In this document: piece by piece, positions 25,739 through 44,285 of the stretch | Numbering within the stretch: position 1 is the first letter of the stretch | Layout of the letters: the number at the start of each line of letters is the position of its first letter | Assembly (NCBI GenBank): GCA_028283625.1 | Contig: JAPWKG010000024.1 | Span: forward strand, 124,001 to 188,000 | Direction of reading: 5' to 3' | DNA length: 64,000 nt | Source: Acidobacteriaceae bacterium | GTDB lineage: Bacteria > Acidobacteriota > Terriglobia > Terriglobales > Acidobacteriaceae | Program-made: the position numbers and the translations under genes | Notes under the pieces: model-generated | Databases searched by the model: none | Seen by the model: only the letters and a program-made list of their open reading frames with translations | What the model was told of the DNA's origin: nothing

Positions 25739-28700
25739 ATGCGCACTCGCCTTCTTCTTGTTGCCTGTATTTTTTTTCTTGTTCTGAGCGCTGTGCGTCT
25801 TGATGCGCAGGCTACCGCGACCTTGACCGGTATCTCGACGGATGCAAACGGTGCGCGTTTATCCCACGCCACGGTGGTGTTGACTGGAAAGCAGACCGGT
25901 ATTGCGCGATCGGTACAGACCAACGAAGTTGGCGAGTACACCATCCCTCTGCTCCTGCCGGGCGAGTACAGCGTGCGCGTGAGCCAGACAGGATTTACGA
26001 GCAAAGTGGTTGAGTCCATCGTGCTGCAGGTGGGGCAGGTGTCTCGCCTCGATGTGGCGCTCAGTGTTGGCGAGAGTGTGACGTCGGTGGACGTGCGAGG
26101 TGGGCAGGTCGATCTCGATACGGACTCTGCATCGGTCGGCACAACCATTACGAATCGGACCGTGGTCAATATGCCGCTGAATGGACGCCAGTTCTACACG
26201 TTGGCTTTGCTGGTACCGGGTGTTTATCCTCCGGTGCAGAACTCCACGCTTGGTTTTCGCGGCGGCTTCAACGTTGCTGGATCGTCAGAAGTGGCTAACT
26301 ACTTTACCTTGGACGGATTCAATAACGTTGACGGTGCCAATGGGTCGCCGACTGTTCGTCCATCGATCGACGATATTCAAGAGTTCCACGTACAGACAGG
26401 CGTTTATCAGGCGGAGTATGGCCATAACAATGGTGGCCAGGTAACCGTGTTAACCAAGCAGGGAAGTAACGCCTGGCACGGAACAGCCTATGAGTTTCTT
26501 CGCAACGATATTTTTGATGCCAGAAACTATTTTTCTCTGCGAAGCGCGCCGAACCAGTTGAAGAGAAATGATTTCGGTGGAACATTCTCTGGCCCTATCC
26601 GCTCAAATAAAACCTTCTTCTTCTTTAGCTATGAGGGGTTGCGCCTGGTGCAGTCGGTTACCACGTTGGGCAATGTGCCGACGCCGCAGGAGCAGGCAGG
26701 CAACTTCAGTGCCCTGGCCTCGTTATCCACCCCCACGGGGTACTCTCCGTTAGTCGTTGCCGATAATCAGATCAATACGGCGTATATGACTGCGTCGCAG
26801 CTGCAGGCCTATACCGTTGGCAAGGCATTGCTCTCGTATTATCCGCAGCAGAACACAACAGGGACAAATAACTACTCGTTTACAGGAAAGCGCACAGAGC
26901 ACAGTAACCAGTACAGTATGCGCCTCGACCATACCTTCAATGAGAAGGACAGCCTGTACGCAACGCTCCAGTACTTCGACGATCCGTCATTTGAGCCATC
27001 CAACGCGCTATGTGGATCAGCTCAGATTCCGGGTTTCGGTTGCAGCTCTCCTTACACCGGGCAGCTCTACGGAGGAGCCTGGAACCATATGTTTTCTTCA
27101 ACGCTTTATAACCAGTTGCGGATCGGGTTCCAGCGTGCGCGCGGTGCTCGTTATGGTGAGGACGATACGATTCCGTTCAACGAAACCTATGGAATTAATG
27201 CCTTTGACAACCCGTCATATCCGAATAATGGCGGTTTGCCGTACACGCTGATCACAGGCTTTGCTACGCTGGGCAGCTACGTCAATGTGCCGCAGGATCG
27301 CCGAGACAATCTCTACGAATACGCCGACGATCTTCTGTGGACTCTGGGGCGTCATAGCATTAAATTCGGTTTCGACGCGCAGCGTTTCCAGAACAATGAT
27401 CTCTTCACGCTTTACGGTCGAGGAGTCATGCAGTTCACCTCAGCCAATACCGGTGGCGGAACCGGTAATGCTTTGGCGGATGCGTTGCTGGGAATTCCTG
27501 CGGTAACGCTCAAGACGCCCACCGCGCCCCAGAGCTATGTGCGTGAGAACTACTTTGCAGCCTATGCCCAGGACGATTTCAAAGTGACACCGCATCTTGC
27601 GTTGAACTTCGGCCTGCGTTGGGAGCTTTTCGGCCCCCCAAACGATACCCAGAATAACTTCGCTAACTTCAATACAACCACGGGTACACCCTACAAGTTA
27701 GGCACCGATGGAACCTCGCGTCTTCCCTGGCCGAATATCTGGCACAACTTCGGACCACGTGTGGGTTTCTCGTATCAGCCACCCCTCTCCCGCACGACGG
27801 TGATTCGTGGTGGATTTGGCGTTATGTACAACCAGCAGCCTACAGAAAATGGTCTCTTCAACCTGATCACGAGCACTCCTGTACGGCAGTCTCAGACTTT
27901 TGTTTCCATTCCGTCACTACCGCTTTCGCTGGCCAACCCTTTCCCGACGAATGCGTATACAACAGCGCTTACCCCCGGAGGTATTGCAAAATCCTTTCAG
28001 GCCGCGCAGATTTATGAGTGGAGCTTCGGCGTACAGCATCAGTTCGGCTCTACGCTGCTGGATGTGGCCTACTTTGGTTCCATCGGCAGGCATATTCCGA
28101 ACGAGATCAACCTGAACCAGCCAGCAGAAGGTTACGCCAGCACAACGCTGGCAACCGCAGGCCGCCCGTATCCGAAGTACGGCAACATTACCTGGGATGA
28201 GAGTGAAGGAGCTTCCAACTTCAATTCTCTACAGGTGAAGGTGCAGCGCAATGTGGGGCATGGACTCAACATGGTCGCGTCCTACACGTACGGTCGTTCG
28301 CTGGACAATACACCGGGCATTGCAACGAGCGATAACGCGTCGCCTTCTTTTCCGCAAAACTCGCATGACCTGAATGCCGATTATGGTCGCTCGGGTTTTG
28401 ATATCAAGCATCGTTTTGTCATTAGCCCGGTCTATGAGCTTCCTTTTGGCGCGGGCAAGCGCTATGCGACGCATGGTATTCCGGGGGTACTCTTTGGCGG
28501 CTTCCAACTCTCCGGCATCCTTACGGTGCAAAGCGGAACTCCGGCAACGCCAACGTATGCCAGCAATATCAGCAACACCTTCAACAGTTCTCTGGGATCA
28601 GGAATCGACCGGCCAAACGTTCATGGAAATCCGAACGATGGTCCCAGGAACGTTTCGGAGTGGTTCGACACCAGCGTATACAGCAAGCCGCAGAGCGGAT

Positions 28701-28945
28701 ACTTTGGCGATGCAGGACGGAACAGCATCGATGGCCCGGGATATACGGATCTTGATATTGCCGCGGCCAAGAACTTTGCCCTCACCAGCAAGCTCCAGAT
28801 GCAGGCAAAGGGAGAGGCCTTCAATCTGTTCAATCATCCGAACTTCTACCTGCCTGTGACCAAGGTGGATAGCTCTACCTTCGGATCGATCACCACGGCC
28901 TACGACCCAAGACAGATCCAGCTTTCTCTCAGGCTCTTGTTCTAA
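25739..28945 (+). CDS. Oar-like TonB-dependent receptor with N-terminal carboxypeptidase-regulatory domain
   Basis: The 1068-residue outer membrane protein has a signal peptide (1-22), a carboxypeptidase-regulatory-like beta-sandwich (about 25-110: GISTDANGARLSHATVVLTG, GEYTIPLLLPGEYSVRVSQTGF) and a plug region (about 130-240, ending EYGHNNGGQVTVLTK). The rest is a long barrel ending in aromatic Phe (QLSLRLLF). Proteins of this layout are abundant in acidobacteria and resemble the Oar adhesin/secretion protein of myxobacteria. The substrate is unknown. It stands alone between the taurine-like operon and an amino-acid permease. Confidence 0.9.
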   Translation: MRTRLLLVACIFFLVLSAVRLDAQATATLTGISTDANGARLSHATVVLTGKQTGIARSVQTNEVGEYTIPLLLPGEYSVRVSQTGFTSKVVESIVLQVGQVSRLDVALSVGESVTSVDVRGGQVDLDTDSASVGTTITNRTVVNMPLNGRQFYTLALLVPGVYPPVQNSTLGFRGGFNVAGSSEVANYFTLDGFNNVDGANGSPTVRPSIDDIQEFHVQTGVYQAEYGHNNGGQVTVLTKQGSNAWHGTAYEFLRNDIFDARNYFSLRSAPNQLKRNDFGGTFSGPIRSNKTFFFFSYEGLRLVQSVTTLGNVPTPQEQAGNFSALASLSTPTGYSPLVVADNQINTAYMTASQLQAYTVGKALLSYYPQQNTTGTNNYSFTGKRTEHSNQYSMRLDHTFNEKDSLYATLQYFDDPSFEPSNALCGSAQIPGFGCSSPYTGQLYGGAWNHMFSSTLYNQLRIGFQRARGARYGEDDTIPFNETYGINAFDNPSYPNNGGLPYTLITGFATLGSYVNVPQDRRDNLYEYADDLLWTLGRHSIKFGFDAQRFQNNDLFTLYGRGVMQFTSANTGGGTGNALADALLGIPAVTLKTPTAPQSYVRENYFAAYAQDDFKVTPHLALNFGLRWELFGPPNDTQNNFANFNTTTGTPYKLGTDGTSRLPWPNIWHNFGPRVGFSYQPPLSRTTVIRGGFGVMYNQQPTENGLFNLITSTPVRQSQTFVSIPSLPLSLANPFPTNAYTTALTPGGIAKSFQAAQIYEWSFGVQHQFGSTLLDVAYFGSIGRHIPNEINLNQPAEGYASTTLATAGRPYPKYGNITWDESEGASNFNSLQVKVQRNVGHGLNMVASYTYGRSLDNTPGIATSDNASPSFPQNSHDLNADYGRSGFDIKHRFVISPVYELPFGAGKRYATHGIPGVLFGGFQLSGILTVQSGTPATPTYASNISNTFNSSLGSGIDRPNVHGNPNDGPRNVSEWFDTSVYSKPQSGYFGDAGRNSIDGPGYTDLDIAAAKNFALTSKLQMQAKGEAFNLFNHPNFYLPVTKVDSSTFGSITTAYDPRQIQLSLRLLF

Positions 28946-29045: not shown

Positions 29046-30551
29046 ATGCGGAATGGGGATGAGGCGAGTTCTGAAAAACGCCTGGGATTGCTTGACGCCA
29101 CGATGATTGTTGCGGGGTCGATGGTTGGCTCGGGCATCTTTCTGGTGACGGCGCAGATGGCGCGCGATGTGAGCGGTGCGGGTTGGCTGATGCTTGCCTG
29201 GGGAATTACGACGGCGTTGACGCTTGCGGCCGCGCTTTCCTACGGAGAGCTGGCGGCCATGATGCCTCTCGCCGGTGGGCAGTACGTCTTCCTACGCGAA
29301 GCGTATTCGCGCTTCTGGGCCTTCCTCTATGGCTGGACGCTGTTCTTCATTATGCAGACGGGCCTGATCGATGCGGTGACGATTGGCTTTGCGCGTTATT
29401 TAGGCGTGCTATGGCCTGCGGTCGCTGAAGATCACTATCTGGTGGCACCAATTGCTCTCGGTAAGCACTATGCGCTTTCTCTATCTACAACACAGTTGAC
29501 GGCGCTGTTGTTGATCGTTGTGTTGAGCTGGGTCAACGCGCGTGGCGTGGACTACGGCAAGCTGGTGCAGAACGTTTTCACGCTCGCAAAGCTTGGAGCG
29601 CTGGTAGTGGTCATAGCGTTTGGTCTGCTTGTCGGCTGCAATCATGCGGTGATTCATGCCAATTACGTGCATGCCTGGCAGCTGAGTTCGCCTGCTGGTG
29701 CAGGTGCTCCATTGTGGTGGAAGGCGCTGGTTGCGGTCTGTGTCGCACAGGTCGGTTCGTTATTTGCAGCCGATGCATGGAACAACGTGACCTTTGTGGC
29801 AGGGGAGATTCGCCGGCCGCAAAGGAACCTTCCGCTGGCGTTGCTGCTTGGCACCGGAGGAGTGATGCTGATCTACATTGGAGCCAACCTGGCTTACACC
29901 TTCGTTCTACCGATGCAGGCAATTCAAAGTGTTCCTGCGGACCGTGTGGGTGCAGCGATGCTCAACGCGATTTATCCGCGATACGGAAGCACGATCATGG
30001 CAGTGCTGATTCTGGTGGCTGCTGCTGGCTGTGTAAACGGCATCATCCTTTCAGGAAGCCGGACCTTTGCGACGATGGCGCGCGACGGACTTTTCCTGGA
30101 ATCGGCAGCAAAGCTTAACCGGGCCGGAGTACCCGGCGTTGCGCTCTGGGTACAGGCTGCGTGGGCGGTGCTGCTTCTGCTGGTGCGCACGCATGATCCG
30201 GTTCGGAACACGTATGGCAACCTCTACAGCAATCTGCTGGACTATGTCATCTCCGCAGCGCTCTTCTTCTATGTGCTGACGGTGGCGGCGGTGTGGCGAC
30301 TGCGGCGCAAGCGGCCGGAGGCGGAACGTCCTTACAAAACCTGGGGATACCCTCTTGTTCCAGGGGTGTACTGCGTCTTCGCCGGTCTGATCCTGCTGGT
30401 GCTTTGCTGGTATAGAGCTGCGACGGCTCTGCCGGGGTTTGGCCTGATTGCCTGTTGTGCGGTTGTTTATTTTCTGCTCTATCGCCGTGCTTCTTCTTCG
30501 GGGACAAGAGAGCGGAGAGCGGAGTTGCAGCAGGCTTTGCCACCGGCCTGA
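29046..30551 (+). CDS. APC-family amino-acid permease
   Basis: The 501-residue product has about twelve hydrophobic helices. The first holds the family motif ATMIVAGSMVGSGIFL, where the unwound GSGIF segment binds the amino-acid backbone, and a second conserved piece is SYGELAAMMPLAGGQYVFLREAY. It resembles the LAT/SteT group of amino-acid exchangers and importers. A TTG at 29043 directly precedes the ATG; the ATG follows CGGAGGA at a good distance. Substrate is not predictable. It is 100 bp downstream of the TonB receptor and may share transcription through a weak hairpin. Confidence 0.9.
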   Translation: MRNGDEASSEKRLGLLDATMIVAGSMVGSGIFLVTAQMARDVSGAGWLMLAWGITTALTLAAALSYGELAAMMPLAGGQYVFLREAYSRFWAFLYGWTLFFIMQTGLIDAVTIGFARYLGVLWPAVAEDHYLVAPIALGKHYALSLSTTQLTALLLIVVLSWVNARGVDYGKLVQNVFTLAKLGALVVVIAFGLLVGCNHAVIHANYVHAWQLSSPAGAGAPLWWKALVAVCVAQVGSLFAADAWNNVTFVAGEIRRPQRNLPLALLLGTGGVMLIYIGANLAYTFVLPMQAIQSVPADRVGAAMLNAIYPRYGSTIMAVLILVAAAGCVNGIILSGSRTFATMARDGLFLESAAKLNRAGVPGVALWVQAAWAVLLLLVRTHDPVRNTYGNLYSNLLDYVISAALFFYVLTVAAVWRLRRKRPEAERPYKTWGYPLVPGVYCVFAGLILLVLCWYRAATALPGFGLIACCAVVYFLLYRRASSSGTRERRAELQQALPPA

Positions 30552-30612
30552 GGCGGGCGCAGAAGGGGCTGCGTTTGCTCATCGTGCCTTTTTTTTGTGA
30601 GCATGGGTGGGT

Positions 30613-33576
30613 ATGTTGCGTGCTTCCTCATTCAAGCGCTCTCTGCGGTGGAGCGTCTTCGCTCTCTCGCTGACGTTGCCCGCCGGCAGCCTGCGAGCGC
30701 AGTTTGCCGGCGAGGCGACACAATACACGCGCACGGTTTGGCGTCTTCCGGAAGGGCTCCCGGAGGACACTGTCCAGGCGGTTGCTGCGTCTGAGGCCGG
30801 GGAACTCTGGGTCGGAACAACCGGGGGCCTGGCGATTTCCTCGGGTGGTGTCTTTCACGCGTTTCGTGCCAGTCGTGGTCCTTCCATGGAGGGGCAGAGT
30901 ATTTTCTGCCTTACTCTAAGCCGCGACGGAAGTTTGTGGGCAGGCACTGAAGGCGGCGGCCTGTTGCGAATTCGCAATGGTGTAGTGCGCAGTTACGGTG
31001 TGGCAGATGGTTTAACCGATGGCTTTGTGCGCAGCGTTCTGGAAGATGTGCAGGGCCGTCTCTGGGTGGGCACCGATAACGGGTTATTTCTACTGCAGGA
31101 CAATCAACTTCACCGTATAGATCACCAGGATGGCGTGCCGGAGATTGCGGTCCACTCTATTTTGGAGGATCGTGCGCACCGTATTTGGGTGGGTGGTTCG
31201 CGTTTGCTGCGCATTGATCCTGATGGAGCTCGGAAGTTGATTCCGCTTCCCGGGCAGTACAGCCAGAATCGCGTAAAGAAAATTCTGCAGACTGACGATG
31301 GCACGGTTTGGGTGGGCACCGTGGGAGGGCTGCAGCGTTTTGATGGAACTGCTTTTCGCCGCGTTCCTGGAGTGGATGCTACGGTGCGAACCTTGCTGGA
31401 AGGGCATGACGGCGCCCTGTGGATTGGCACAATCGGCCAGGGGTTGTGGAAGCTGCATGACGGCCAGCTACACCGTGTACAGCCAGAGGGCTTGTTGCCG
31501 AGCCAGACCGTGCTGAGTCTTTCGCAGGATGAGAGCGGCAATCTCTGGGTGGGAACGCAGGGCGGCCTGGTTCGTTTAGGAAGCACTCCTGTTTCGTTGT
31601 TGCCTTTACCGAAGGCCAGCGACGTAGATTTTGAGACGATCTCCGGTAATCGCGAAGGGCATGTATGGGTTGCGATGGGCAATCTCTATGTGATCGAAAA
31701 CGGCAAGGCGCGCGAGGCAGAGTACGATCTTGCCGGGGTGAGCGTGCGAAATGTGTATCAGGCTCACGATGGAGCGTTATGGATCGGTACTGATGGTAGT
31801 GGGGCGTACCGGTTGAGCGCAGGGCAGACACAGCATTTCTCTGTCCCCGGCGAGCTGACCAACAACTTTATTCGTGGCTTTACTGAGAGTCGCGATGGCC
31901 GCATGTGGATCGCTACCGACGAAGGCGTGAGTGTTCTTGGAGCGCACGGTGCCAAGAAGCTGACTGAGGCCGATGGGTTGGCCTACTTCAGTATTCGCAG
32001 CCTTTGTCAGGATCATGCGGGTGTCATCTGGATCGGCACGGATCGTGGGCTAAGCGCATGGAGCAACGGTTCGTTTGTGCAGAATGGCGCAACGCTTGCT
32101 CTACGGCAGGAGAAGGTCTGGTCAATTCTCGAAGATCGTCAAGGCACGTTGTGGTTTGGCACGCGCGAGCATGGTCTCTTCCGTTACAAGGCGGGTCACC
32201 TGGATCAGTTCACCAAGGAGCAGGGGCTTCCGGGCAACAGCATCTATCAGCTACTGCAGGATCATCAGGGTCGCTTCTGGATTACAGGGCCGAACTCCAT
32301 TGCCTCGGCTCCCGAGAGCGAGATGGAGAGTGCGGTGCCCTCGCTGGAAAGGCCGCTGAGCGTCACGCTCTACTCCATGCCGTATGGCGCAGAGGATGCA
32401 CAGCTTTATGGCGGTCGCCAGCCGGAGGGTTATCTTGCTCCGGACGATTCGGTATGGTTTCCTACGACGGTTGGCGTAGCGCATGTTGTGCTGCGCAAAG
32501 ACGCTCCGATACCGCGGCCGCCTCATGTTTTGATCGACAACGTACTGCAGGACGGCTTTCCGTTGCATCGCAGCGCGGAGCTGCATATTGCAGCGCCGGC
32601 AACCCGTCTCAGCTTCCACTTTTCCACGATGGATCTGAGACCGCAAAGCGAGGTGCACTTCCGCTATCGGCTCGAAGGCTTCGATGCTCACTGGACAAGT
32701 TCCGGCCCGGAACAGACCGCGACCTATACGAACCTGAAACCAGGGCGGTATCGCTTCCGAGTGCAGGCATTTGATTCGGCGCAGCCCTCTGCGGTGACAG
32801 AAGACGCCATCGCTTTGCGCAAAGCGCCTTTGTTCTACCAGGCATGGTGGTTCTACGTCGCCTGCACTGTGCTGTTGTTGGTGCTGGTGTGGAGCATCTA
32901 TCGCTTACGTCTGCGTGCGGTGCATCAGCGTTATGCTGCTGTGCTGGAAGAGCGTGGGCGTCTGGCGCGTGAGTTGCATGACACCGTCATTCAGGGCTGT
33001 ACCGGCGTCTCTGCCTTGCTGGAGGCTGTGGCCAGTACGGCGGAGCTGGGTGCTCCTGTCGATCTTGACCTGCTGAATTACGCACGCGAGCAAACGCGCG
33101 CCACCATTCACGAAGCAAGGCAGGCGGTCTGGGATCTGCGTTCCGGACAAAAAGACAAGCTCGATCTTGCGGCGGCTTTGAAGGCGCTGGGTACGCAGCT
33201 GGCTCGCGAAAATCGCGATTTTGTTTTTACGGTGGAGGCGCAGCAGCCTGTACTTCTTCGTGCCTCGATTGTGCATGAGTTGACGATGGCCGCTCGTGAA
33301 GCGGTGTTGAATGCGATGAAGCACAGCGGCAGCCGCCGCATTGAGCTCAGGCTTGACCGCAGCGCGCACGAGCTGCGTCTTTCCGTAAAAGACTTCGGCT
33401 GCGGTATCGTGGCAGGAGAAGCTGCTGCTAAGACAGGGCACTACGGCATCATCGGGATGCGTGAACGCGTGGAGCGCGTTGGCGGCAGCCTGGAGATTGC
33501 AAGCGCACCGTCTGAGGGAACCACCGTTACATTCTTCCTGTTGCCGCCATCCAGATTGAGAGCTCCTGAAGCATGA
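30613..33576 (+). CDS. Periplasmic-propeller sensor histidine kinase (Reg_prop, Y_Y_Y, HisKA_3, ATPase)
   Basis: From the ATG at 30613 the product has 987 residues: signal peptide (1-30), then about thirteen propeller blades recognised by repeated LWVGT..GGL motifs (for example RLWVGTDNGL, NLWVGTQGGL, VIWIGTDRGL). A Y_Y_Y domain follows at about 660-735 (FRYRLEGFDAHW and NLKPGRYRFRVQAFD), then one TM helix (WWFYVACTVLLLVLVWSIY). The HisKA_3 box is RLARELHDTVIQGCTG, and the ATPase ends GHYGIIGMRERVERVGGSL. The periplasmic part is that of Bacteroidetes hybrid two-component systems that sense glycans. ATGA overlap with the response regulator gene proves pairing. Downstream lie galactan-degrading enzymes. 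Confidence 0.93.
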   Translation: MLRASSFKRSLRWSVFALSLTLPAGSLRAQFAGEATQYTRTVWRLPEGLPEDTVQAVAASEAGELWVGTTGGLAISSGGVFHAFRASRGPSMEGQSIFCLTLSRDGSLWAGTEGGGLLRIRNGVVRSYGVADGLTDGFVRSVLEDVQGRLWVGTDNGLFLLQDNQLHRIDHQDGVPEIAVHSILEDRAHRIWVGGSRLLRIDPDGARKLIPLPGQYSQNRVKKILQTDDGTVWVGTVGGLQRFDGTAFRRVPGVDATVRTLLEGHDGALWIGTIGQGLWKLHDGQLHRVQPEGLLPSQTVLSLSQDESGNLWVGTQGGLVRLGSTPVSLLPLPKASDVDFETISGNREGHVWVAMGNLYVIENGKAREAEYDLAGVSVRNVYQAHDGALWIGTDGSGAYRLSAGQTQHFSVPGELTNNFIRGFTESRDGRMWIATDEGVSVLGAHGAKKLTEADGLAYFSIRSLCQDHAGVIWIGTDRGLSAWSNGSFVQNGATLALRQEKVWSILEDRQGTLWFGTREHGLFRYKAGHLDQFTKEQGLPGNSIYQLLQDHQGRFWITGPNSIASAPESEMESAVPSLERPLSVTLYSMPYGAEDAQLYGGRQPEGYLAPDDSVWFPTTVGVAHVVLRKDAPIPRPPHVLIDNVLQDGFPLHRSAELHIAAPATRLSFHFSTMDLRPQSEVHFRYRLEGFDAHWTSSGPEQTATYTNLKPGRYRFRVQAFDSAQPSAVTEDAIALRKAPLFYQAWWFYVACTVLLLVLVWSIYRLRLRAVHQRYAAVLEERGRLARELHDTVIQGCTGVSALLEAVASTAELGAPVDLDLLNYAREQTRATIHEARQAVWDLRSGQKDKLDLAAALKALGTQLARENRDFVFTVEAQQPVLLRASIVHELTMAAREAVLNAMKHSGSRRIELRLDRSAHELRLSVKDFGCGIVAGEAAAKTGHYGIIGMRERVERVGGSLEIASAPSEGTTVTFFLLPPSRLRAPEA

Positions 33577-34211
33577 GTAGAAGTTTTGAAACAGATCCAA
33601 TCCGCGTGTTGATAGTGGACGACCATCCGATCATGCGCTTCGGCATCGCGGCCATCATCAATGCGCAGCAAAATATGGAGGTTGTCGCGCAGGCGGGCTC
33701 CGCGACGGAGGCGGTGCAGATGTTCAAGCGCCTGCTGCCGGATATTACGCTCATGGATCTTCGCCTGCCGGACAGGAGCGGTGTTGAGGCGATTCGAGAG
33801 ATCTGTGCGGGCACCCCGGATGCTCGTGTCGTGGTGCTTACGACGTATGAAGGCGATGAGGATATCCATCAGGCGCTTGCTGCAGGCGCCCGCGGCTACC
33901 TGATCAAAGGGATGTCGCATGACACTCTGCTCAATGCGCTGCAGCGCGTGCACTCTGGTCAGCGCTTTCTTCCTGCGGCGGTGACGGAAGCTCTTTCCTT
34001 ACGGCCGCCGGGCTCACACCTGAGCCAGAGGGAGCTGGAGGTCCTGCAGCTGATGTTTGCCGGGAAAAGTAACCGTGAAATCGCCGAAGAGCTCAGAATC
34101 AAGGAAGCCACGGTGAAGACACATGTGAGCGTCATTCTCACGAGGTTGAACGTGCAGGATCGCACTCAGGCGGTGGTTGAAGGTTTGAAACGCGGCCTGA
34201 TTCACCTGTGA
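33573..34211 (+). CDS. NarL/LuxR-family response regulator
   Basis: The 212-residue product starts within the kinase stop (4-base ATGA overlap). The receiver has LIVDDHPIMRFGI and phospho-acceptor Asp in ITLMDLRLPD. The HTH has LSQRELEVLQLMFAGKSNRE and ATVKTHVSVILTRL. It is the output of the propeller kinase. A 37-bp conserved element begins 34 bp after this gene, in front of the GH53 gene, and is a candidate binding site. Confidence 0.93.
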   Translation: MSRSFETDPIRVLIVDDHPIMRFGIAAIINAQQNMEVVAQAGSATEAVQMFKRLLPDITLMDLRLPDRSGVEAIREICAGTPDARVVVLTTYEGDEDIHQALAAGARGYLIKGMSHDTLLNALQRVHSGQRFLPAAVTEALSLRPPGSHLSQRELEVLQLMFAGKSNREIAEELRIKEATVKTHVSVILTRLNVQDRTQAVVEGLKRGLIHL

Positions 34212-34244
34212 AAATAGGGCAAAATGCTGCTCTCCTACTTTCGA

Positions 34245-34281
34245 CGGATACGAAACGTTATCGCGCGTTCGTATAGTTCCG
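34245..34281 (+). promoter_or_regulatory. Conserved 37-bp upstream element, copy A (before GH53)
   Basis: Matches copy B (37941-37977) without gaps at 24 of 37 positions: CGGATA-N4-ACGTTAT-N10-TAYAGTTCCG, with two isolated matches besides. It contains TATAGT at 34272-34277, a possible -10 box, and a 7-bp inverted repeat ATACGAA/TTCGTAT. If TATAGT is used, transcription would start near the GTG at 34286. Confidence 0.65.
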
Positions 34282-34285
34282 TTCT

Positions 34286-35416
34286 GTGTTTAGAACTGCA
34301 AAAATCCCGTGCTCAATTTTCCGGCAACTGACCGTTTGTGGGTTTTTGTCGGCGGGCCTGGCAATCGCCCAGGCGTCCCCTGCTCCGCAGGGCACAGCAC
34401 CGGCAAATCCGTTGGGCGCCTGCCCCCCCATCGCTTTGGGCGCAGATGTTTCTTTTGCTCCGCAGGCAGAGCAGCAGGGAACGGTGTTTACCGATCACGG
34501 TGTTGCGAGACCGCTGCTGGAGACGCTGCGGCAGCATGGCTACGGCTGGGTAAGGCTCCGTTTATTCAATAATCCGACGACGCTTCCCAACAATCTTGAG
34601 TACACCCTGGCGGAGGCCAAGAAGGCGAAAGCTCTTGGCTTTGGGCTCGTGCTCGATCTTCATTACTCCGATGACTGGGGCGATCCGCAGCACCAGATCA
34701 CTCCGCTTGCCTGGCAGAAGATGAAGCACGAAGAGCTGACCAACGCTGTCTTCACTTACACGCGCGATACAATTGCGCGCTTTCGTGAAGAAGGGGTGAT
34801 GCCGGATATCGTTCAGACTGGAAATGAAATCACCTCTGGCATGATGTGGCCTGACGGCAAGCTGCCTGACCAGTGGCCGCACATGATTGAGCTGCTTTCC
34901 GCCGCTGGCCGCGGTGTGGTTGCCGGCACGGGCAATGCCCGTCGGCCGAGCATCATGCTGCACATCGACCAGGGGGGCAACATTGAAACCACGCGCTGGT
35001 TCTTCTCGCACATCCTTGCGGCGCACGTTCCGTTCGATGTGATTGGCCAGTCGTATTACCCCTGGTGGGAGGGAAGTCTGGCGGATCTGAAGGCCAACCT
35101 CGCCTTCATGGCCAATGAGTACCACAAGCCGATCGTCGTGATTGAGACGGCCTACAGCTGGCGCCCTGACAACTACATCGGCAAGAAAGCTCCGTACCCG
35201 GAAACGCCGGAAGGTCAGCGTGAGTTTTTGCAGGCCGTAGCGCAGACCGTGGCGGAAACGCCCAATCACCTTGGCCGCGGCCTTTTCTGGTGGGAGCCCG
35301 CAGTGCGCGGCCCGCTCGCCCGCCGCGGACTTTTTGACGATGATGGCAAGTCGCTTCCCGCACTCAATGTCTTCGACGCTTGCATGCAACCGGTTTCACC
35401 AAAGGCTCAACCATGA
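34286..35416 (+). CDS. Arabinogalactan endo-beta-1,4-galactanase, GH53
   Basis: The enzyme cuts beta-1,4-galactan chains such as those of pectin. The 376-residue product has a signal peptide (cut near AIAQA|S) and the GH53 barrel: LGADVSFAPQAEQQG, GWVRLRLFNNP, VLDLHYSDDWGDP, the acid/base Glu181 in VQTGNEITSGMMWP, GQSYYPWWEG, and the nucleophile Glu287 in VVIETAYSW. The GTG start at 34286 has no Shine-Dalgarno sequence and lies about 8 bases after a possible -10 box. It overlaps the GH35 gene by 4 bases (ATGA). Product galactooligosaccharides would feed that enzyme. Confidence 0.93.
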   Translation: MFRTAKIPCSIFRQLTVCGFLSAGLAIAQASPAPQGTAPANPLGACPPIALGADVSFAPQAEQQGTVFTDHGVARPLLETLRQHGYGWVRLRLFNNPTTLPNNLEYTLAEAKKAKALGFGLVLDLHYSDDWGDPQHQITPLAWQKMKHEELTNAVFTYTRDTIARFREEGVMPDIVQTGNEITSGMMWPDGKLPDQWPHMIELLSAAGRGVVAGTGNARRPSIMLHIDQGGNIETTRWFFSHILAAHVPFDVIGQSYYPWWEGSLADLKANLAFMANEYHKPIVVIETAYSWRPDNYIGKKAPYPETPEGQREFLQAVAQTVAETPNHLGRGLFWWEPAVRGPLARRGLFDDDGKSLPALNVFDACMQPVSPKAQP

Positions 35417-37896
35417 TGTCCTCCTCCTCCTTGCTTCGTTTCTTTTGTTTGTCCGCAATCTCGGCTGCATCGTTTACTGCTGCTGCACAGGTACCTTCTT
35501 CAAGAATTTCGATCGATGCTTCTGCGCCACAGGCTGCGCCGCAGCCGGTACAAGCCAGGCTGGGTACGGATCGGAATCCGCAGGGGGACGTAATCAGTGT
35601 CAATTCGCAGTACCTGACCTATGACGGAAAGCCCTGGCTTCCGGTCATGGGAGAGTTCCACTTCTCGCGTTATCCGGAGTCAGAGTGGGAGCGAGAGATT
35701 TTGAAGATGAAGGCCGCCGGTGTGGACATCGTTGCCACCTACCTCATCTGGATCCACCATGAAGAGTACGAAGGCAAGTTTGACTGGAGCGGCCAGCGTG
35801 ACTTCCGCCGCTTCGTGCAGCTATGCGCCAAGCATGGCATGTACGTTTATCCGCGCATCGGGCCCTGGGCGCACGGCGAGGTCCGCAACGGTGGTCTGCC
35901 GGACTGGGTGCTGAAGAACAGCCCCACTCGTCAGAACAACCCTATCTATTTGCGCGAGGTCGATGCGTTTTACAAGCAGATCGGCGACCAGATGAAGGGG
36001 CTGCTCTGGAAAAACGGCGGTCCTATCATCGGCATCCAGGTTGAAAATGAGTACCGCGCGACGGGTGAGGGAGAAGGGTCTGACCACATCCGTACTCTGA
36101 AGCAGATGGCCATTGAAGACGGCATGGATGTGCCGCTGTACACGGTTACCGGGTGGGATGGTGCAAGTATTCCTCTGGACGCGGTTCTGCCCGTCTTCGG
36201 TGGGTATCCGGACGCTCCCTGGGATAGCTCTCCCAAGGCGCTGCCGCCGAACGAGGTCTATGCCTTCCGCTTTGCAAACCGTAGCGCCGGCAACATGGGC
36301 GCAATTGGTGGCAAGGGGCAAAGCCCGGCGTCGGTTTACGCGGGCACTCCTTTTCTTACGGCAGAGGTCGGCGACGGAATTCAGGACACGTACTTCCGGC
36401 GTCCTGCGCTGTCTACGGACGACGTCGCGGCGATTGCTCCCGTGATGTTGGGCAGCGGCGTGAACATGCTTGGCTACTACATGTTCCATGGCGGACGGAA
36501 TCCAGACGGCGGTGCGATTACGCTGCAGGAGTCACAACGTACCGGCTATCCGACCGATGTCCCGGTAAAGTCCTATGACTTCCAGGCGCCGCTTGGTGAG
36601 TTCGGCCAGCCGCGCGAGTCGTTGCGGAAGCTGAAGCTGGTGCACTACTTCCTGCAGGACTTTGGCGATGAGCTTGCACCGATGGCCCCCCATGCGCCTT
36701 CTGTGCAGCCTTCCAGCCCGTCGGATGTCAGCGTGCCTCGGGTCTCTGCGCGCACGAACGGCGACGCAGGGTTTGTCTTCTTCAACAACCATGTGCGTGA
36801 CCTGGCGATGCCAGCTCGTTCCGGCTTCCAGGTAGAGCTGCATCTGCCTTCCGGCGTGGTGCGTGTGCCGGAGCAGCCGATCTCGCTGGCAGCCGATTCC
36901 TTTGGCATCTGGCCGGTGAACTTCAAGCTGGGCAGCGCTACGCTGCGCTACAGCACGGCCCAGCTCTTCAAGAAGCAGACCGTCGCAGGCAAAACGACGT
37001 ACTTTTTCTTTGCGATTCCCGGGGTAGAGCCTGAGTTCTCCTGGAGCGAGGCGAACGCGGTGCGTCACGCGGAGGGTGTTCTCGGGGAACGTCAGGACGG
37101 CACAGCCAGAACGCTGCTCTTCAGTGAGAACAAGAGCGCTGTTCTGGAGCTCGCGGACGGTTCCCGTGTTGTGCTGCTGCCAGAGGCCAAGGCAGAGCAG
37201 GCCTGGAGCAGCGGCCAAAGCGCAGCTCCGTTGTTGTTCACCTCGGCTGACGCGTTTGCCGACGAGCAGGGCTGGACGCTCGACACCTATGGCGACCCCA
37301 ACTTCGCTGTCGATGTGCTGGGAGCCCACCAGGCACCTAAGGTGATCGGAGATATTCCGGTAGCGAGCAAGTCGGTGGAAGGTCTGTTTACTTCATACCG
37401 CTTTGCGCTCAAGCCGGTTGCGCTTCCCGTGACGGTTACCCAACAGCAGCAGGCTAAGCCGCGCGGCGCCTTTGAGATGGGGCCAACGCTCTCCTGGCGA
37501 GCGGCCATTGCCATGGCCCCCGATGAGGAGGAGTTTGCTGGAGCGGCTTCCTGGAAGCTTGCGCTGCCTGCGGTTCCGGAGCATAGCCATGTAACCGATG
37601 CGCTGTTGCGTGTGCGGTACTCGGGTGATGTGGCACGGCTGTACCAGCAGGGCGTCCTGGTGGATGACAACTTCTGGAATGGTTTGCCCTGGGAGATCGG
37701 TCTGCGTGAGACCAGTACCGGTTGGCGGCAGGCCTCCTCGGCAGAGATTAAGGTTCTACCGTTACCGGAGAAATATCCCATGTATCTGGAAAAATCAGCG
37801 CTGCTTGAGTTCCAGCACGGAGTCGCGGCTTCACTGCAGAAGGTCGAGCTTATCCCGCGTTACGAATTGCACTTGCAGCTTTCAGAGAAGCGCTAG
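35413..37896 (+). CDS. Exported beta-galactosidase, GH35
   Basis: The 827-residue product has a signal peptide (RFFCLSAISAASFTAAA) and an N-terminal GH35 barrel: GEFHFSRYPESEWEREI, YPRIGPWAHGEVRNGGLPDW, catalytic acid Glu213 in IGIQVENEY, and probable nucleophile Glu318 in FLTAEVGDG. Beta-rich accessory domains occupy about 440-827. It removes terminal beta-galactose. ATG 35413 overlaps the GH53 stop (ATGA), so translation is coupled and the two enzymes act on the same glycan: endo cuts first, then release of galactose. The TonB receptor gene follows after its own upstream element. Confidence 0.92.
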   Translation: MMSSSSLLRFFCLSAISAASFTAAAQVPSSRISIDASAPQAAPQPVQARLGTDRNPQGDVISVNSQYLTYDGKPWLPVMGEFHFSRYPESEWEREILKMKAAGVDIVATYLIWIHHEEYEGKFDWSGQRDFRRFVQLCAKHGMYVYPRIGPWAHGEVRNGGLPDWVLKNSPTRQNNPIYLREVDAFYKQIGDQMKGLLWKNGGPIIGIQVENEYRATGEGEGSDHIRTLKQMAIEDGMDVPLYTVTGWDGASIPLDAVLPVFGGYPDAPWDSSPKALPPNEVYAFRFANRSAGNMGAIGGKGQSPASVYAGTPFLTAEVGDGIQDTYFRRPALSTDDVAAIAPVMLGSGVNMLGYYMFHGGRNPDGGAITLQESQRTGYPTDVPVKSYDFQAPLGEFGQPRESLRKLKLVHYFLQDFGDELAPMAPHAPSVQPSSPSDVSVPRVSARTNGDAGFVFFNNHVRDLAMPARSGFQVELHLPSGVVRVPEQPISLAADSFGIWPVNFKLGSATLRYSTAQLFKKQTVAGKTTYFFFAIPGVEPEFSWSEANAVRHAEGVLGERQDGTARTLLFSENKSAVLELADGSRVVLLPEAKAEQAWSSGQSAAPLLFTSADAFADEQGWTLDTYGDPNFAVDVLGAHQAPKVIGDIPVASKSVEGLFTSYRFALKPVALPVTVTQQQQAKPRGAFEMGPTLSWRAAIAMAPDEEEFAGAASWKLALPAVPEHSHVTDALLRVRYSGDVARLYQQGVLVDDNFWNGLPWEIGLRETSTGWRQASSAEIKVLPLPEKYPMYLEKSALLEFQHGVAASLQKVELIPRYELHLQLSEKR

Positions 37897-37940
37897 GTCG
37901 AGCGCTCGGTTTGGAAAAAAACGGGCGCTCCCCCTTTTGG

Positions 37941-37977
37941 CGGATATCAGACGTTATTCGCAACACATACAGTTCCG
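37941..37977 (+). promoter_or_regulatory. Conserved 37-bp upstream element, copy B (before TonB receptor)
   Basis: Ungapped partner of copy A at 34245-34281, sharing CGGATA, ACGTTAT and AGTTCCG at identical spacing. TACAGT at 37968-37973 sits where copy A has TATAGT. The 7-bp inverted repeat of copy A is not kept, so the shared blocks rather than the palindrome are the conserved part. Confidence 0.65.
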
Positions 37978-38054
37978 CTGTTCTTCTTCCTGCGAAGAAT
38001 CGGTACGCGAAAAAAACAAGCGCAGGTCTTGGCAGGAACATCAGGAGGCAGTAC

Positions 38055-41000
38055 ATGCAAGTTTGCTCAGAGAGCTTTTCCCCCCGGCGCGCGTCTGTGC
38101 GGCTGCTTCGGCAGCTCGGCTGCGTCGTGGCTATGCTGGTAGTGCTGAGCCTACCGGCAATGGCGCAGGTTGGTCAGTCCGTTGTGAGCGGTACGGTGGA
38201 AGACTCCACCGGCGCAATTATTCCCGGCGCAACGATCACGTTGACGGACGTTACGAATGGTGTAACGCGGACCGCCAAGTCGGACGGCCGAGGTTACTTC
38301 TCGTTCTCCATGCTGCCGGCGTCCACGTTCCAGGTCTCGTTGCACATGGACGGCTTTACCGACCTGGTTCGCAAGAACATCGTGCTGCACATCGGCGACC
38401 ACCAGGACGTCCCGCAGCTCAAGATGGAGCCTGCAACGGCGACGCAGACGGTCGATGTTTCCGCCGAGTCGGACAGCATCACGCCGACGACCAGCGGAGA
38501 AAGCGCTTACACGATCTCCAGCAAACAGATCCAGAACCTGAATATTCAGGGGCGTAGCGCGATGGAGCTCCTCGGACTGGTTCCGGGTGCAGCGAACGCG
38601 GGCAACTTCAACTCGAGCCAGTACTCAGGGACGACCGCTGGTTTTTCGAATAATTCGAGCGGCTTCAGCATCAACGGTAATCGCTTTGACCAGACGCAGA
38701 TCGTCAGCGATGGCGCCGCGGTAACGGACATCAACACGGCTGGCGCTGCTGCTGTTACGCCGAACGTCGACATGGTTTCCGAAGCAAAGGTTGAAACCTC
38801 GGCGTTTCTTCCGGAAAATCCGAATGGCCCGGTTGTCGTCAACACCGAAACGAAGTCCGGTGGTCATGACTACCACGGCGAACTTTATGCCAGCGTTCGT
38901 AACGCTGCGCTAAATACGACCGATTGGCGCGTCAAGAACGAGCTGCTGCCCAAGCCGAACGAGGCGTACTACTATCCGGGCGTCAACATCGGTGGCCCTG
39001 TACTCTTCCCGGGCTTCAACAAAAATCGCGATAAGCTCTTTTTCTTTGCGGGTTTTGAGAAGTCGCTGCAGTATGTTCAGGATCCGCTGCTGGATATCCG
39101 TGAAACGGTCTCTCCTACCGCCGCGATGCGTACGGGTGACTTTACCGACACGGCATACCTTTCCAGCCTGAACTCGAGCGCCTCCTGGTATGCCACCCAG
39201 GTTCCTTGCGCCTCCTCGGGTGACAACGCTGCTCTCTGTACCTCGCCCGGCACGATTGATCCGTCGCAGATCGACCCCAACGGCAAGCTGCTGCTGAACA
39301 AGCTGCCGCTTCCGAACGTGGATCCTACGCAGCACAATGGTTACAACCTTGTGTCCAGCGCGCAGACCTTTCAGCCACGCGATCAGGAAAACCTGAAGAT
39401 TGACTATAACGTCAACAACAATAACCACTTCTCGGCTCGTTATAACCATGAGGCGGAGAGCATCCCTTTCCCGTACGGGTACTACAACACCTTTACGACA
39501 GACCTGTATCCGGCTGGGCAGTTCAATCACAACGACTCGAACTCGGTTGTGGGCAACCTCGCTTCGGCTTTCTCGGCGTCCTTGAGCAATCAGTTGGTGT
39601 TCTCGTATACACGCCTCAATATGCAGACGTATCTGCACAATGAGTCGGCGGTCTCTCGTTCCGTCAGCGGATACACCGGACCGGATCTCTACAACAACAA
39701 CACGGATATTTTGCCGAACGTTCAGCCCGGTTACGGCGGCGGTGGTTACGCTTCGCTCTATACCGTAGGCGGAAGCTATCCGACGACGAACGCTCCTCAG
39801 GAAACCTATTCGGTCAATGAGAGCATTACGAAAATGCTGGCGAGCCACACGATCAAGGCCGGCTTCTACTATGCCCAGCAAGGCTTTGGACAGTTGACGC
39901 ACGGTCTCGAAAATGGCCTGATGCAAACCGGTGAGTACGGAAACTCCTACCAGACCGGTAACATCTTCGCCGATCTTCTCGTGGGTCGCATTGCTTACTT
40001 CCAGCAGAGTTCAAAGAACTTTGTTGCGTACCTGAAAGAACGCCGCAGCGACTTCTTTGTGCAGGATCAATGGAAGGTAACGCAACGTTTCAACCTGAAC
40101 TACGGTGTACGAGTCAACCACATCGGGTCCTGGTATGAACAGAATGGACGCATGGTCGTATTCGATCCGAGTCTGTATAGCTCAAGCGATACGTTCGCTG
40201 ATGCTCCCGGGCTTGTGACGCATGCCACGCACCCCTCCACGCCGATCAGCGGTAACCCCGGTCTCGGCTTCCAGATTGCTCCCGACGTAGGTTTCGCGTG
40301 GGACTTCTTTGGTACCGGTATGACCATCCTGCGCGGTGGCTTTGGTACGAACAACTACGTGGATCCTGGCAACAATGCGTTTTCTACCGTGCAGGCGCCT
40401 CCGAACCAGAACTTTACCAGCTACTACGGTCTGACCACGATTTCCAATATTCCCAACCTGCAGACCTACCTGCCGCTTGGTGTCTATGGCATCGCGGATC
40501 GTACGAATACCAAGCTGCCTGTCACTCGTTCGTATACCCTGGCGCTTTCGCAGGGGCTTCCCGGCGGAATGAACATGGAGCTTTCCTACAACGGCAACGC
40601 GTCGAAATACCTGGTGGGCTATCTGAACACCAACCCGGTGCCGGAAGGCTGCCCCAATGAATATCTTGGCTACACTCCGGGAACCTACAACGATACGCTT
40701 TGCCGACCGTATGGCCTGCTCGATGCTCTGAGCACGGAGAAGCATAACCTCAGCTCGTACTACAACTCCCTGCAGGCCACAGCTTCCAAGCGTACCGGTG
40801 TGGTCAACTTCTGGCTTACCTATACCTGGGGTAAGACCATGGCCTATAACTGCGAAAACGCATTCGACGAGCGTCGTTGCTACAATCCTGCGCCGTTTGA
40901 TATCAGCCAGAATCTGAACATCTCCTATGTAATCAATCTGCCTAGCGTGGGTGCGCATCATCTCGGAAATCACAAGGTGGTCAACGGCATTCTCGACGGC

Positions 41001-41597
41001 TGGCAGATTACGGGAATTGAACAGTTCTCCTCGGGCGCGCCGTTGGGCGTGAGTGCGGCTGCTTCGGCAAACGGGAACAGCAGCATCGAGTATGACGGTA
41101 CGCATACACGCACGCTAAACTTCTACGGCGTGTCGGACGCAGCGAATAATTACTCGTCGCCGAACTTCGATAACCGCATCACGGTTGGTACTCCCGATGA
41201 GCAGGGTGTGCCGACGCTGGTCTGCGATCCTCGAGCCAACCTTGCTCCGCACCAGTACTTCAAGGCTTCGTGCTTCCGTGCACCCAACTACGGAACAGCG
41301 AACTCTCCGAGTATCGGTACCTATCGCTTGCCGTACATCCACGGACCGCGCGCCGAGTCGGACACCATTGGTCTCTACAAGTCCTTCAAGTTCTCAGGAC
41401 AGCGTAGCTTCCAATTGCGCGCGCAGGTGTTTGACATGTTCAACCACGCATACGACTCGTTTGTGCAGTACGATCCTAACCTGTACCTGGAGTATGACGC
41501 CTATGGTGGTTTGCCGGTCAACACCGCGAAAACCGGTTATGCCAGCACCCGTATCGGTCATCGTACGGTGCAGCTTGAAGGCAAGATCTACTTCTAA
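38055..41597 (+). CDS. Oar-like TonB-dependent receptor, galactan locus
   Basis: The start is the ATG at 38055, 6 bases after an AGGAGG; the frame is open upstream without signal features. The 1180-residue product has a signal peptide (RLLRQLGCVVAMLVVLSLPAMA), a carboxypeptidase-regulatory domain (VVSGTVEDSTGAIIPGATIT, DGRGYFSFSMLPAST), a plug with NIQGRSAMELLGLVPGA and NGNRFDQTQIVSDG, and a long barrel ending VQLEGKIYF. Co-occurrence with GH53/GH35 and a shared upstream element suggest uptake or binding of galactan oligosaccharides. Substrate assignment is by context only. Confidence 0.9.
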   Translation: MQVCSESFSPRRASVRLLRQLGCVVAMLVVLSLPAMAQVGQSVVSGTVEDSTGAIIPGATITLTDVTNGVTRTAKSDGRGYFSFSMLPASTFQVSLHMDGFTDLVRKNIVLHIGDHQDVPQLKMEPATATQTVDVSAESDSITPTTSGESAYTISSKQIQNLNIQGRSAMELLGLVPGAANAGNFNSSQYSGTTAGFSNNSSGFSINGNRFDQTQIVSDGAAVTDINTAGAAAVTPNVDMVSEAKVETSAFLPENPNGPVVVNTETKSGGHDYHGELYASVRNAALNTTDWRVKNELLPKPNEAYYYPGVNIGGPVLFPGFNKNRDKLFFFAGFEKSLQYVQDPLLDIRETVSPTAAMRTGDFTDTAYLSSLNSSASWYATQVPCASSGDNAALCTSPGTIDPSQIDPNGKLLLNKLPLPNVDPTQHNGYNLVSSAQTFQPRDQENLKIDYNVNNNNHFSARYNHEAESIPFPYGYYNTFTTDLYPAGQFNHNDSNSVVGNLASAFSASLSNQLVFSYTRLNMQTYLHNESAVSRSVSGYTGPDLYNNNTDILPNVQPGYGGGGYASLYTVGGSYPTTNAPQETYSVNESITKMLASHTIKAGFYYAQQGFGQLTHGLENGLMQTGEYGNSYQTGNIFADLLVGRIAYFQQSSKNFVAYLKERRSDFFVQDQWKVTQRFNLNYGVRVNHIGSWYEQNGRMVVFDPSLYSSSDTFADAPGLVTHATHPSTPISGNPGLGFQIAPDVGFAWDFFGTGMTILRGGFGTNNYVDPGNNAFSTVQAPPNQNFTSYYGLTTISNIPNLQTYLPLGVYGIADRTNTKLPVTRSYTLALSQGLPGGMNMELSYNGNASKYLVGYLNTNPVPEGCPNEYLGYTPGTYNDTLCRPYGLLDALSTEKHNLSSYYNSLQATASKRTGVVNFWLTYTWGKTMAYNCENAFDERRCYNPAPFDISQNLNISYVINLPSVGAHHLGNHKVVNGILDGWQITGIEQFSSGAPLGVSAAASANGNSSIEYDGTHTRTLNFYGVSDAANNYSSPNFDNRITVGTPDEQGVPTLVCDPRANLAPHQYFKASCFRAPNYGTANSPSIGTYRLPYIHGPRAESDTIGLYKSFKFSGQRSFQLRAQVFDMFNHAYDSFVQYDPNLYLEYDAYGGLPVNTAKTGYASTRIGHRTVQLEGKIYF

Positions 41598-41614
41598 CGC
41601 GTAGCTGTAGCTCC

Positions 41615-41653
41615 AAAATAAGCGGCTTCTCCTCTCCGGAGAAGCCGCTTATT
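41615..41653. terminator. Strong intrinsic terminator, bidirectional
   Basis: AAATAAGCGGCTTCTCC pairs perfectly with GGAGAAGCCGCTTATTT around TCTCC. The flanks are A-rich and T-rich, so it can serve both the TonB receptor gene and the minus-strand ribbon-helix-helix gene. Confidence 0.92.
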
Positions 41654-41715
41654 TCTTTTGGAGCCGCTCCGCTAGGAACTCGATAGAGGCTGGTGAAGCG
41701 TAGTGGAGGATCGAA

Positions 41716-41982
41716 TCAGCTGCCAGAGGCTGAGTTGCCACCGGCTGAAGAGCCCCCTGTAGGCTTGCGCGGTGTGACCAAAGCCAGAGCCGGGCGGTTG
41801 CGTTCGCCCATGCGCAGGGTCTCATCATTGGTGTGCATGCGGCTGATCTTCTCCGCAATGGCAAGGCCGATGAAGTGATTCAGAGAGATGCCTTCCTGGC
41901 GCGCGAGGTCGGTCGATTGCCGGCGCAACGAAGGAGGCAATCGCAAGGGGAAGCTTTTGTGGCGCGCGTCATCTGTAGTCAT
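41716..41982 (-). CDS. Orphan ribbon-helix-helix protein (HicB-antitoxin-like), copy 1
   Basis: The 88-residue product starts at ATG 41982, preceded by AAAGGAA at good spacing. Its core, KSFPLRLPPSLRRQSTDLAR followed by EGISLNHFIGLAIAEKISR, is a ribbon-helix-helix DNA-binding fold of the kind seen at the end of HicB antitoxins. The C-terminus is a low-complexity Gly/Ser tail. There is no HicA-like toxin gene beside it. A close paralogue lies at 43643-43882 on the same strand, on the other side of the HD gene. It may act as a transcriptional regulator rather than an antitoxin. Confidence 0.75.
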   Translation of the reverse strand: MTTDDARHKSFPLRLPPSLRRQSTDLARQEGISLNHFIGLAIAEKISRMHTNDETLRMGERNRPALALVTPRKPTGGSSAGGNSASGS

Positions 41983-42217
41983 CCGTCTGTTCCTTTCCGG
42001 GTTCACCTGTGGATCATCGGCCAAATTCTTCTCGAACTTGAGAGCATCGCTTCGTTTCAGGCTTGGACAGAATAACCAGCGTGATAAGGAGCAGAACGGT
42101 ATTCGACGAACTCCAGACCCAAATTGATATCAAAAGGGGAAAAAAAATCATCTGATTCTCATTTGTGCTCAATGCACGCCGATATTTGGATCATGCTTAC
42201 AATTGAAAGGGGGGAGT

Positions 42218-43882: not shown

Positions 43883-44285
43883 AGTTCAACTCGTTTCTTC
43901 TGACTACAACATGGGAGCAGCGGAGTAGTCAGAAGACTATCGCTGGCCGATGCAGGCAGCAAGCATCACTTTGCGACACTTTATCCCTGAACTAACACTT
44001 TGGGAGTAGAAGGTAGGCGCCGCCGGCGATATCACGACTTACTCGACGAGTAATTGCAATCCTCTTGTAAGGGGCGGCAAGCGCGTTTTTCTCTTCGATC
44101 CGGTACGGAAATAGGCGCTAAGTGAGGGTGAGATATCCAAGACGATATCACCTTGAAGCTTTATTGCTTCAGACCCCCTAGACGTCTCATTTTGCTGACT
44201 TATAGTTGGCCTCCGAGTCCACGGATTTTTGCCACCAGATGTTGTGAGTAACGGCAAACGGATGGGAACTTTCAGGAGGAACGTT
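43883..44285. promoter_or_regulatory. Divergent regulatory region between RHH copy 2 and the giant lipoprotein gene
   Basis: This 403-bp stretch has no recognised gene but three symmetric elements: the inverted repeat CTTCTGACTAC (43897-43907)/GTAGTCAGAAG (43925-43935), the perfect 15-bp palindrome TTACTCGACGAGTAA (44040-44054), and an imperfect repeat GGTGAGATATC/GATATCACC at about 44127-44152. AGGAGG lies before the ATG at 44286. Confidence 0.6.

Follow-up and report, generated by a model that had tools for sequence, protein, structure and literature searches.

An 18-nucleotide dyad shared by galactan-use promoters of Acidobacteria and its probable link to the adjoining LuxR/NarL-type response regulator

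A shared promoter element in a galactan-use locus

We have examined a stretch of 64,000 nucleotides (nt) from an Acidobacteriaceae bacterium (assembly GCA_028283625.1, contig JAPWKG010000024.1, positions 124,001 to 188,000; hereafter, the window), in which the genes for a sensor histidine kinase and a response regulator precede a GH53-GH35 operon and the gene of a TonB-type receptor. The conserved unit reported here is an 18-nt imperfect dyad, ATCCNAC-TTTY-GNCGGAT, followed after 22 nt by a TAnnnT -10 box. It stands before the operon and again before the receptor gene and, judging from comparisons between loci, it is very probably the operator through which the adjoining NarL/LuxR-type regulator (33573-34211) would activate both. 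The features of the locus are the following.

30607..33576, + strand: sensor histidine kinase, proposed sensor (Pfam two-component propeller repeats, Y_Y_Y, HisKA_3, HATPase_c)
33573..34211, + strand: response regulator, proposed binder (Pfam Response_reg 9.5e-27, GerE 2.3e-20)
34232..34249, + strand: operator dyad 1, CTCCTAC-TTTC-GACGGAT, before GH53-GH35, conserved at the same promoter of relatives
34272..34277, + strand: -10 box TATAGT, 22 nt past dyad 1, predicted from the dyad spacing
34286..35416, + strand: GH53 endo-galactanase, first gene after dyad 1 (Pfam Glyco_hydro_53 1.4e-84)
35413..37896, + strand: GH35 beta-galactosidase (Pfam Glyco_hydro_35 1.6e-56)
37928..37945, + strand: operator dyad 2, CTCCCCC-TTTT-GGCGGAT, upstream of the receptor gene; relatives have it at their receptor promoters too
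37968..37973, + strand: -10 box TACAGT, 22 nt past dyad 2, predicted from the dyad spacing
38055..41597, + strand: TonB-type outer-membrane receptor after dyad 2 (Pfam OMP_b-brl_4 6.8e-119, CarboxypepD_reg)

A first-pass annotation of this DNA had noted two stretches, 34245-34281 and 37941-37977, that align without a gap with 24 of 37 positions identical, and had proposed a promoter element common to the operon and the receptor gene. Coordinates and count were confirmed, and the proposal was borne out by the conservation of the element in the same promoters of relatives. To evaluate the similarity, we resampled both intergenic stretches (34212-34320 and 37897-38054) with a first-order Markov model in 3000 trials. 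The best 37-nt match, with 25 identical letters, was reached by one of the 3000 resamplings and the best 45-nt match (31/45) by none, both matches beginning upstream of the annotated frame. The full annotated pattern, with up to three mismatches allowed, occurred twice in the window (0 in 100 shuffles), and the genome scan that the annotation had called for, carried out on the source assembly (3.0 Mb, 31 contigs, 84.8% complete), found only these same two sites and no match to the backwards pattern; since the pattern was derived from these two sites, such scans show uniqueness and not significance. The half pattern CGGATA-N4-ACGTTAT alone was discarded, having 36 genome matches against 34 of its reversed control at up to two mismatches. 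Overall, the shared element is a genuine conserved operator, and the annotation was right about its kind and wrong about its limits: the dyad begins 13 nt upstream of the annotated element and ends inside the CGGATA block, which is its right arm. The annotation named no regulator; the gene of the one proposed here lies directly upstream.

Architecture of the dyad and genes behind it

We fetched 58 loci carrying a relative of the response regulator, 51 of them labelled acidobacterial and 7 bearing other labels; the window entered several of the locus comparisons as its stretch 30001-42000. Of the 30 regulator places given by one further search we fetched the regions of 20, and of the 53 given by a later search those of 40; 17 of these 40 were dropped because their aligned regulator was already in the sample, leaving 23 new regulators. 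In total, 119 loci yielded 99 distinct regulators. The regulators and sites of L033 (labelled Verrucomicrobia), L064 (Betaproteobacteria), L074 (Rhodanobacteraceae) and L077 (Formivibrio) nest among acidobacterial ones, and the assemblies behind them are probably mislabelled or mixed.

The conserved letters were read from the promoters of L033, L035, L037, L038 and L060, where kinase, regulator, GH53, GH35 and receptor follow one another as in the window, together with those of L034 and L065. These promoters share TCC-N-A-C-TTT-Y-G-N-C-GGAT, mostly followed by TCG; a -10 box that begins with TA comes 22 nt downstream of GGAT. We then used the composite pattern TCCNNCTTTYGNNGGAT-N22-TANNGT, which at 0-1 mismatch matched 38 times in the window and the 58 regulator loci, the reversed pattern giving 0; a slightly wider composite matched 80 times in loci whose regulator helix contains HVS, compared with 0 or 1 for each of 20 permuted cores. 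The full annotated pattern, tried on the same 58 loci, gave 7 matches at 4-6 mismatches against 1 in the control, the dyad composite performing far better. In the source genome, which encodes one regulator of this kind at E<=1e-60, the composite at up to two mismatches occurred only at the two window promoters, both before pathway genes; at three mismatches, 10 further matches stood against 7 of the control. Among 100 genomes of the family, 16 matches at 0-1 mismatch were found in 10 genomes (reversed control, 2), and 9 of the 16 lay within 15 kb of a regulator match.

Several invariant columns among 52 aligned sites belonged to the search pattern. Outside it, A in column 5 was present in 46 of the 52, C in column 13 in 39, and T, C and G in columns 18-20 in 37, 45 and 38 sites, respectively. 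Among 97 exact dyads collected with no rule on distance, 44 had a TAnnnT at a distance of 21 nt and 49 at 22 nt, and no other distance from 5 to 45 nt occurred in more than 6; the shorter spacing, found in L042, L049, L055, L072, L073, L221, L230 and others, apparently follows lineages. The -10 distance is needed in the pattern, because the dyad alone, at up to two mismatches, matched 136 times against 106 in the control. The core C-TTT-N-G gave 30 dyads with at least six paired positions and a -10 box, and eight other cores, tried in the same way, gave 0, 0, 1, 1, 0, 1, 6 (C-CTT-N-G) and 0.

These data also bear on the internal reading of the annotated element. Its assignment of TAYAGT as a -10 box is supported by the spacing to TAnnnT, which is 21 or 22 nt for almost every exact dyad, and its statement that no -35 box is present holds, the hexamers 17 nt upstream of the two -10 boxes being TACGAA and TATCAG, unlike TTGACA. 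Of the proposed activator site, the upstream position fits the dyad, a candidate site on sequence grounds, but not its composition of CGGATA plus ACGTTAT: the columns of ACGTTAT carry only 0.03-0.69 bits in the 52 aligned sites and are mostly unconserved spacer.

The loci of the 99 regulators contained 125 distinct sites, one of them (L185) of the type called c below, and at 124 a same-strand frame of at least 100 amino acids begins within 350 nt. We scanned the first 330 residues of these 124 proteins for protein families. Among the matches listed, which cover 25 of 30 families, CarboxypepD_reg occurred in 48 proteins, the OMP_b-brl_4 barrel of TonB-type receptors in 46, GH35 in 18, GH53 in 17, a GH2 sugar-binding domain in 12, a glyoxalase domain in 3 and a xylose-isomerase-like barrel in 2, the remainder not being named individually. 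At 86 of the 125 sites the gene that follows is related to GH53, GH35 or one of the two receptors of the window; the same held for 148 of 1000 points placed at random in these loci. The operator would serve mainly genes for galactan or beta-galactoside use. The second TonB-type receptor gene of the window (25739-28945), upstream of a permease gene and the kinase gene, has no copy of the composite at up to three mismatches.

Joint change of regulator helix and operator letters

The regulator carries a receiver and a GerE/LuxR DNA-binding domain, both over the Pfam cut-off, and is thus of the NarL/FixJ type; the nearest solved sequences are VraR (1.7e-41, alignment over residues 10-210), DevR (1.1e-34), DesR (1.3e-33) and NarL (1.9e-31). 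Its recognition helix, starting at residue 178, is EATVKTHVSVILTRL. We compared the presence of the site with this helix after removing three duplicate loci by hand and leaving out three regulators cut by contig ends, two of which have the site. Results showed a site in 35 of 41 loci with an HVS helix and in 1 of 17 without it when loci of at least 12 kb were considered (the set used for the Fisher test), and in 38 of 51 against 1 of 22 when this length cut was lifted. With the pattern fixed beforehand, the new regulators gave 19 of 21 HVS loci and 0 of 2 others. Two HVS loci thus had no site. The stretch of L243 is 11.5 kb long, and the regulator sits close to its edge. In L224 both the helix start (GTVK) and the dyad are altered, the dyad reading CTCTGAC-TTTT-GGCAGAT, with TAGAGT following after 22 nt; L175 is changed likewise.

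A similar correspondence was found where the helix reads VKxRVS. Loci L071 and L074, observed first, and L215, observed later, have the same GH53, GH35 and receptor genes next to the regulator and contain no TCC..GGA site. Their receptor promoters carry CGCATAC-TTTC-GTATGTT (L071 and L215) or GACATAC-TTTC-GTATATT (L074), 22 nt before TACTGT or TAGTGT, so that core, size and distance are those of the first type, type a, and the outer arms (CATAC-TTTC-GTATG) differ.

We next classified the 99 distinct regulators, matches of type c being removed from type a by rule. Class A regulators (VKxHVS) had type a in 50 of 70 loci and types b, c and d in 0 of 70; GTVKxHVS regulators had type b in 2 of 2; class C regulators (VKTH[IV]N) had type c (TCCAYC..GRTGGA, 23-24 nt from the -10 box) in 4 of 12; and VKxRVS regulators had type d in 3 of 4, the remaining locus being a 3.4-kb contig. 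Among eight regulators with other helices, L242 (VKCHLS) has a CATAC-type dyad at 23 nt, and two of three cut regulators had type a. The operator letters thus track the helix class with zero mismatched pairings, and this joint change is the strongest evidence, albeit from sequence comparison, for which protein would bind. Three residues, in window numbering, are proposed to set the arms: 179 (A, S or T with TCC, G with TCT, I or V with CAT arms), 184 (H or R) and 186 (S or N).

In a midpoint-rooted tree of 95 of the 99 regulators, short rows having been dropped, type d forms one group within a fork that also holds type a carriers (100/100 for the d group with L170, 93/96 and 92/84 for the forks enclosing the d group). 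Type b appears in two places and could still have had a single origin; the deep forks are unsure because the branches are long.

Several observations weigh against the assignment of the dyad to this regulator. Twenty of the 70 class A loci lack a strict site, and L036 and L040, class A loci of 19-20.6 kb, have none even at one mismatch; type c was present in only a third of the class C loci; and for 7 of the 16 sites found in the family genomes, the surrounding 15 kb on either side contain no regulator match. Within class A, covariation between the arms does not exceed that of independent positions (for example, 60 of 125 sites paired where 57.0 were expected, and 63 where 63.4 were). In addition, the definitions of types b, c and d came in part from the very loci assigned to them, so that the weight of the table lies in its empty off-diagonal cells and in the loci added later.

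Proposed mechanism, competing explanations and related systems

The sequences themselves show the dyad, its spacing, the gene context, only two copies in the genome and the joint change of helix and operator; that the regulator is phosphorylated, binds there and activates instead of repressing, and which ligand is sensed, we infer. A galactan breakdown product would be sensed by the kinase through its propeller region, and the kinase would phosphorylate the response regulator. With a transcription start predicted 6-8 nt beyond the -10 box, the dyad would be centred near -43, a usual position for an activator that contacts polymerase, and would extend at its right end to the -35 position. Activator sites of class II type, which take the place of the -35 box, are centred at about -41 to -44. 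A regulator dimer bound there would cover the missing -35 box and help polymerase to use the TAYAGT -10 box, and one regulator would in this way switch on two promoters, that of the galactanase and galactosidase genes and that of the outer-membrane receptor gene.

The regulator might instead bind the dyad and repress, or mainly compete with polymerase, a possibility that we consider rather unlikely. The right arm does extend to -35, and position by itself is no proof of activation; however, no -35-like hexamer remains to be competed for, and the tight distance between dyad and -10 box is that expected for polymerase contact. It is also unlikely that the dyad is bound by a different regulator encoded elsewhere (a LacI-, AraC- or GntR-type protein, for example) and that the two-component pair is a mere neighbour. 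The 7 family-sample sites that lack a regulator match inside 15 kb would suit such a protein, and binding by the adjoining regulator is itself predicted from sequence, but the operator letters vary with the helix of this regulator while the adjoining pathway genes stay the same.

A promoter of an alternative, extracytoplasmic function (ECF)-type sigma factor, with GGATTCG as -35 and TAnnGT as -10, would account for the asymmetric TCG extension past the dyad (37, 45 and 38 of the 52 sites). This explanation is very unlikely: the left arm TCC-N-A-C would lie outside such a promoter and is conserved as much as the right one, the operator letters follow the response regulator, and the gap between GGATTCG and the -10 box, about 19 nt, is longer than the roughly 16-17 nt of ECF promoters. 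The shortness of the dyad, its T-rich centre and its place directly behind a stop codon in several loci might suggest an RNA hairpin or a terminator for the gene upstream. This is almost certainly not the explanation, since pairing in the window extends to only 4/7 (dyad 1) and 5/7 (dyad 2) arm positions, the dyads there are not followed by a T run, class A arms lack covariation and the distance to the -10 box is fixed.

Activation by the adjoining regulator, the reading that we prefer, is of a known kind, that of a LuxR/NarL-type response regulator with a pathway-specific operator; the operator itself is new. VraR, DevR, DesR and NarL resemble the system in having receiver and GerE domains and a dyadic site, and what sets the present system apart from them is the propeller sensor of its kinase and the galactan genes that it would control. 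NarL recognizes inverted TACYYMT heptamers in a 7-2-7 arrangement with a 2-nt gap, whereas the unit described here is 7-4-7 with arms ATCCNAC and GNCGGAT, so that both gap and letters differ. The lux box of LuxR, a dyad of about 20 bp near -42 that touches the -35 region, is similar in size, position and GerE-type domain; its letters are others, and LuxR has an autoinducer domain in place of the receiver.

Among Bacteroides hybrid two-component systems, such as HTCS_Pga for pectic galactan, one study describes sensing of oligosaccharides in the cases studied, and a sensor-regulator that likewise adjoins receptor and glycosidase genes thought to be under its control (PMC3878776). According to that study and a second one, however, kinase and regulator are fused there and have an AraC-type domain and direct-repeat motifs (PMC3878776, PMC11253607), in contrast to the two separate genes, GerE domain and dyad found here. 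No operator for such a regulator in Acidobacteria was present among the literature matches listed, drawn from open-licence papers, and one may exist elsewhere in print; when five literal 14-letter operator strings were searched in the literature, one occurred, in a single Arabidopsis paper, among the matches listed.

More broadly, it is fairly probable that a family of propeller-kinase/LuxR-type pairs, mostly from Acidobacteria, uses a common 7-4-7 dyad with core C-TTT-N-G, 21-24 nt before the -10 box, whose arms are set by a few helix residues. If so, operators and regulons would be readable from the regulator sequence, and the family would offer natural matched regulator-operator pairs for testing LuxR-type DNA recognition. 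At this locus the operator connects sensor, regulator, two promoters and a substrate class, and it provides a specific pattern for locating galactan regulons in an abundant soil phylum.

Some additional dyads and gene starts deserve mention. In four VKTH[IV]N loci (L177 at 6516, L180 at 7437, L181 at 13459 and L185 at 6526) a related dyad, CTCCAYC-TTTN-GRTGGA, stands some 3 kb upstream of the regulator gene, at the expected beginning of the kinase gene, which perhaps reflects self-regulation; a kinase match directly behind it was found only for the L185 site (L128). In L080, at 10630, the regulator has the helix EGTVKWHVNVLLGHL and is directly followed by the dyad CCCTAAC-TTTC-GATAGGT, which has TATTAT 21 nt downstream, stands upstream of a receptor gene and is perhaps a further operator type.

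In the window, the stop codon of the kinase gene overlaps the start codon of the regulator gene in the list of open reading frames. The listed GH53 start is a GTG merely 8 nt past the -10 box (34272-34286), and in L033 and L060 a GTG likewise lies about 7 nt past it; the GH53 mRNA may be leaderless or the real start codon may lie further in. The GH35 ATG at 35413 overlaps the GH53 stop codon, the longest listed frame beginning at a TTG at 35380. The receptor ATG at 38055 is preceded by AGGAGG, and the longest listed frame, from a TTG at 37911, would cover the promoter. Further downstream, a frame of 1621 residues (44229-49094) contains many putative Ig domains (He_PIG, 10 stretches).

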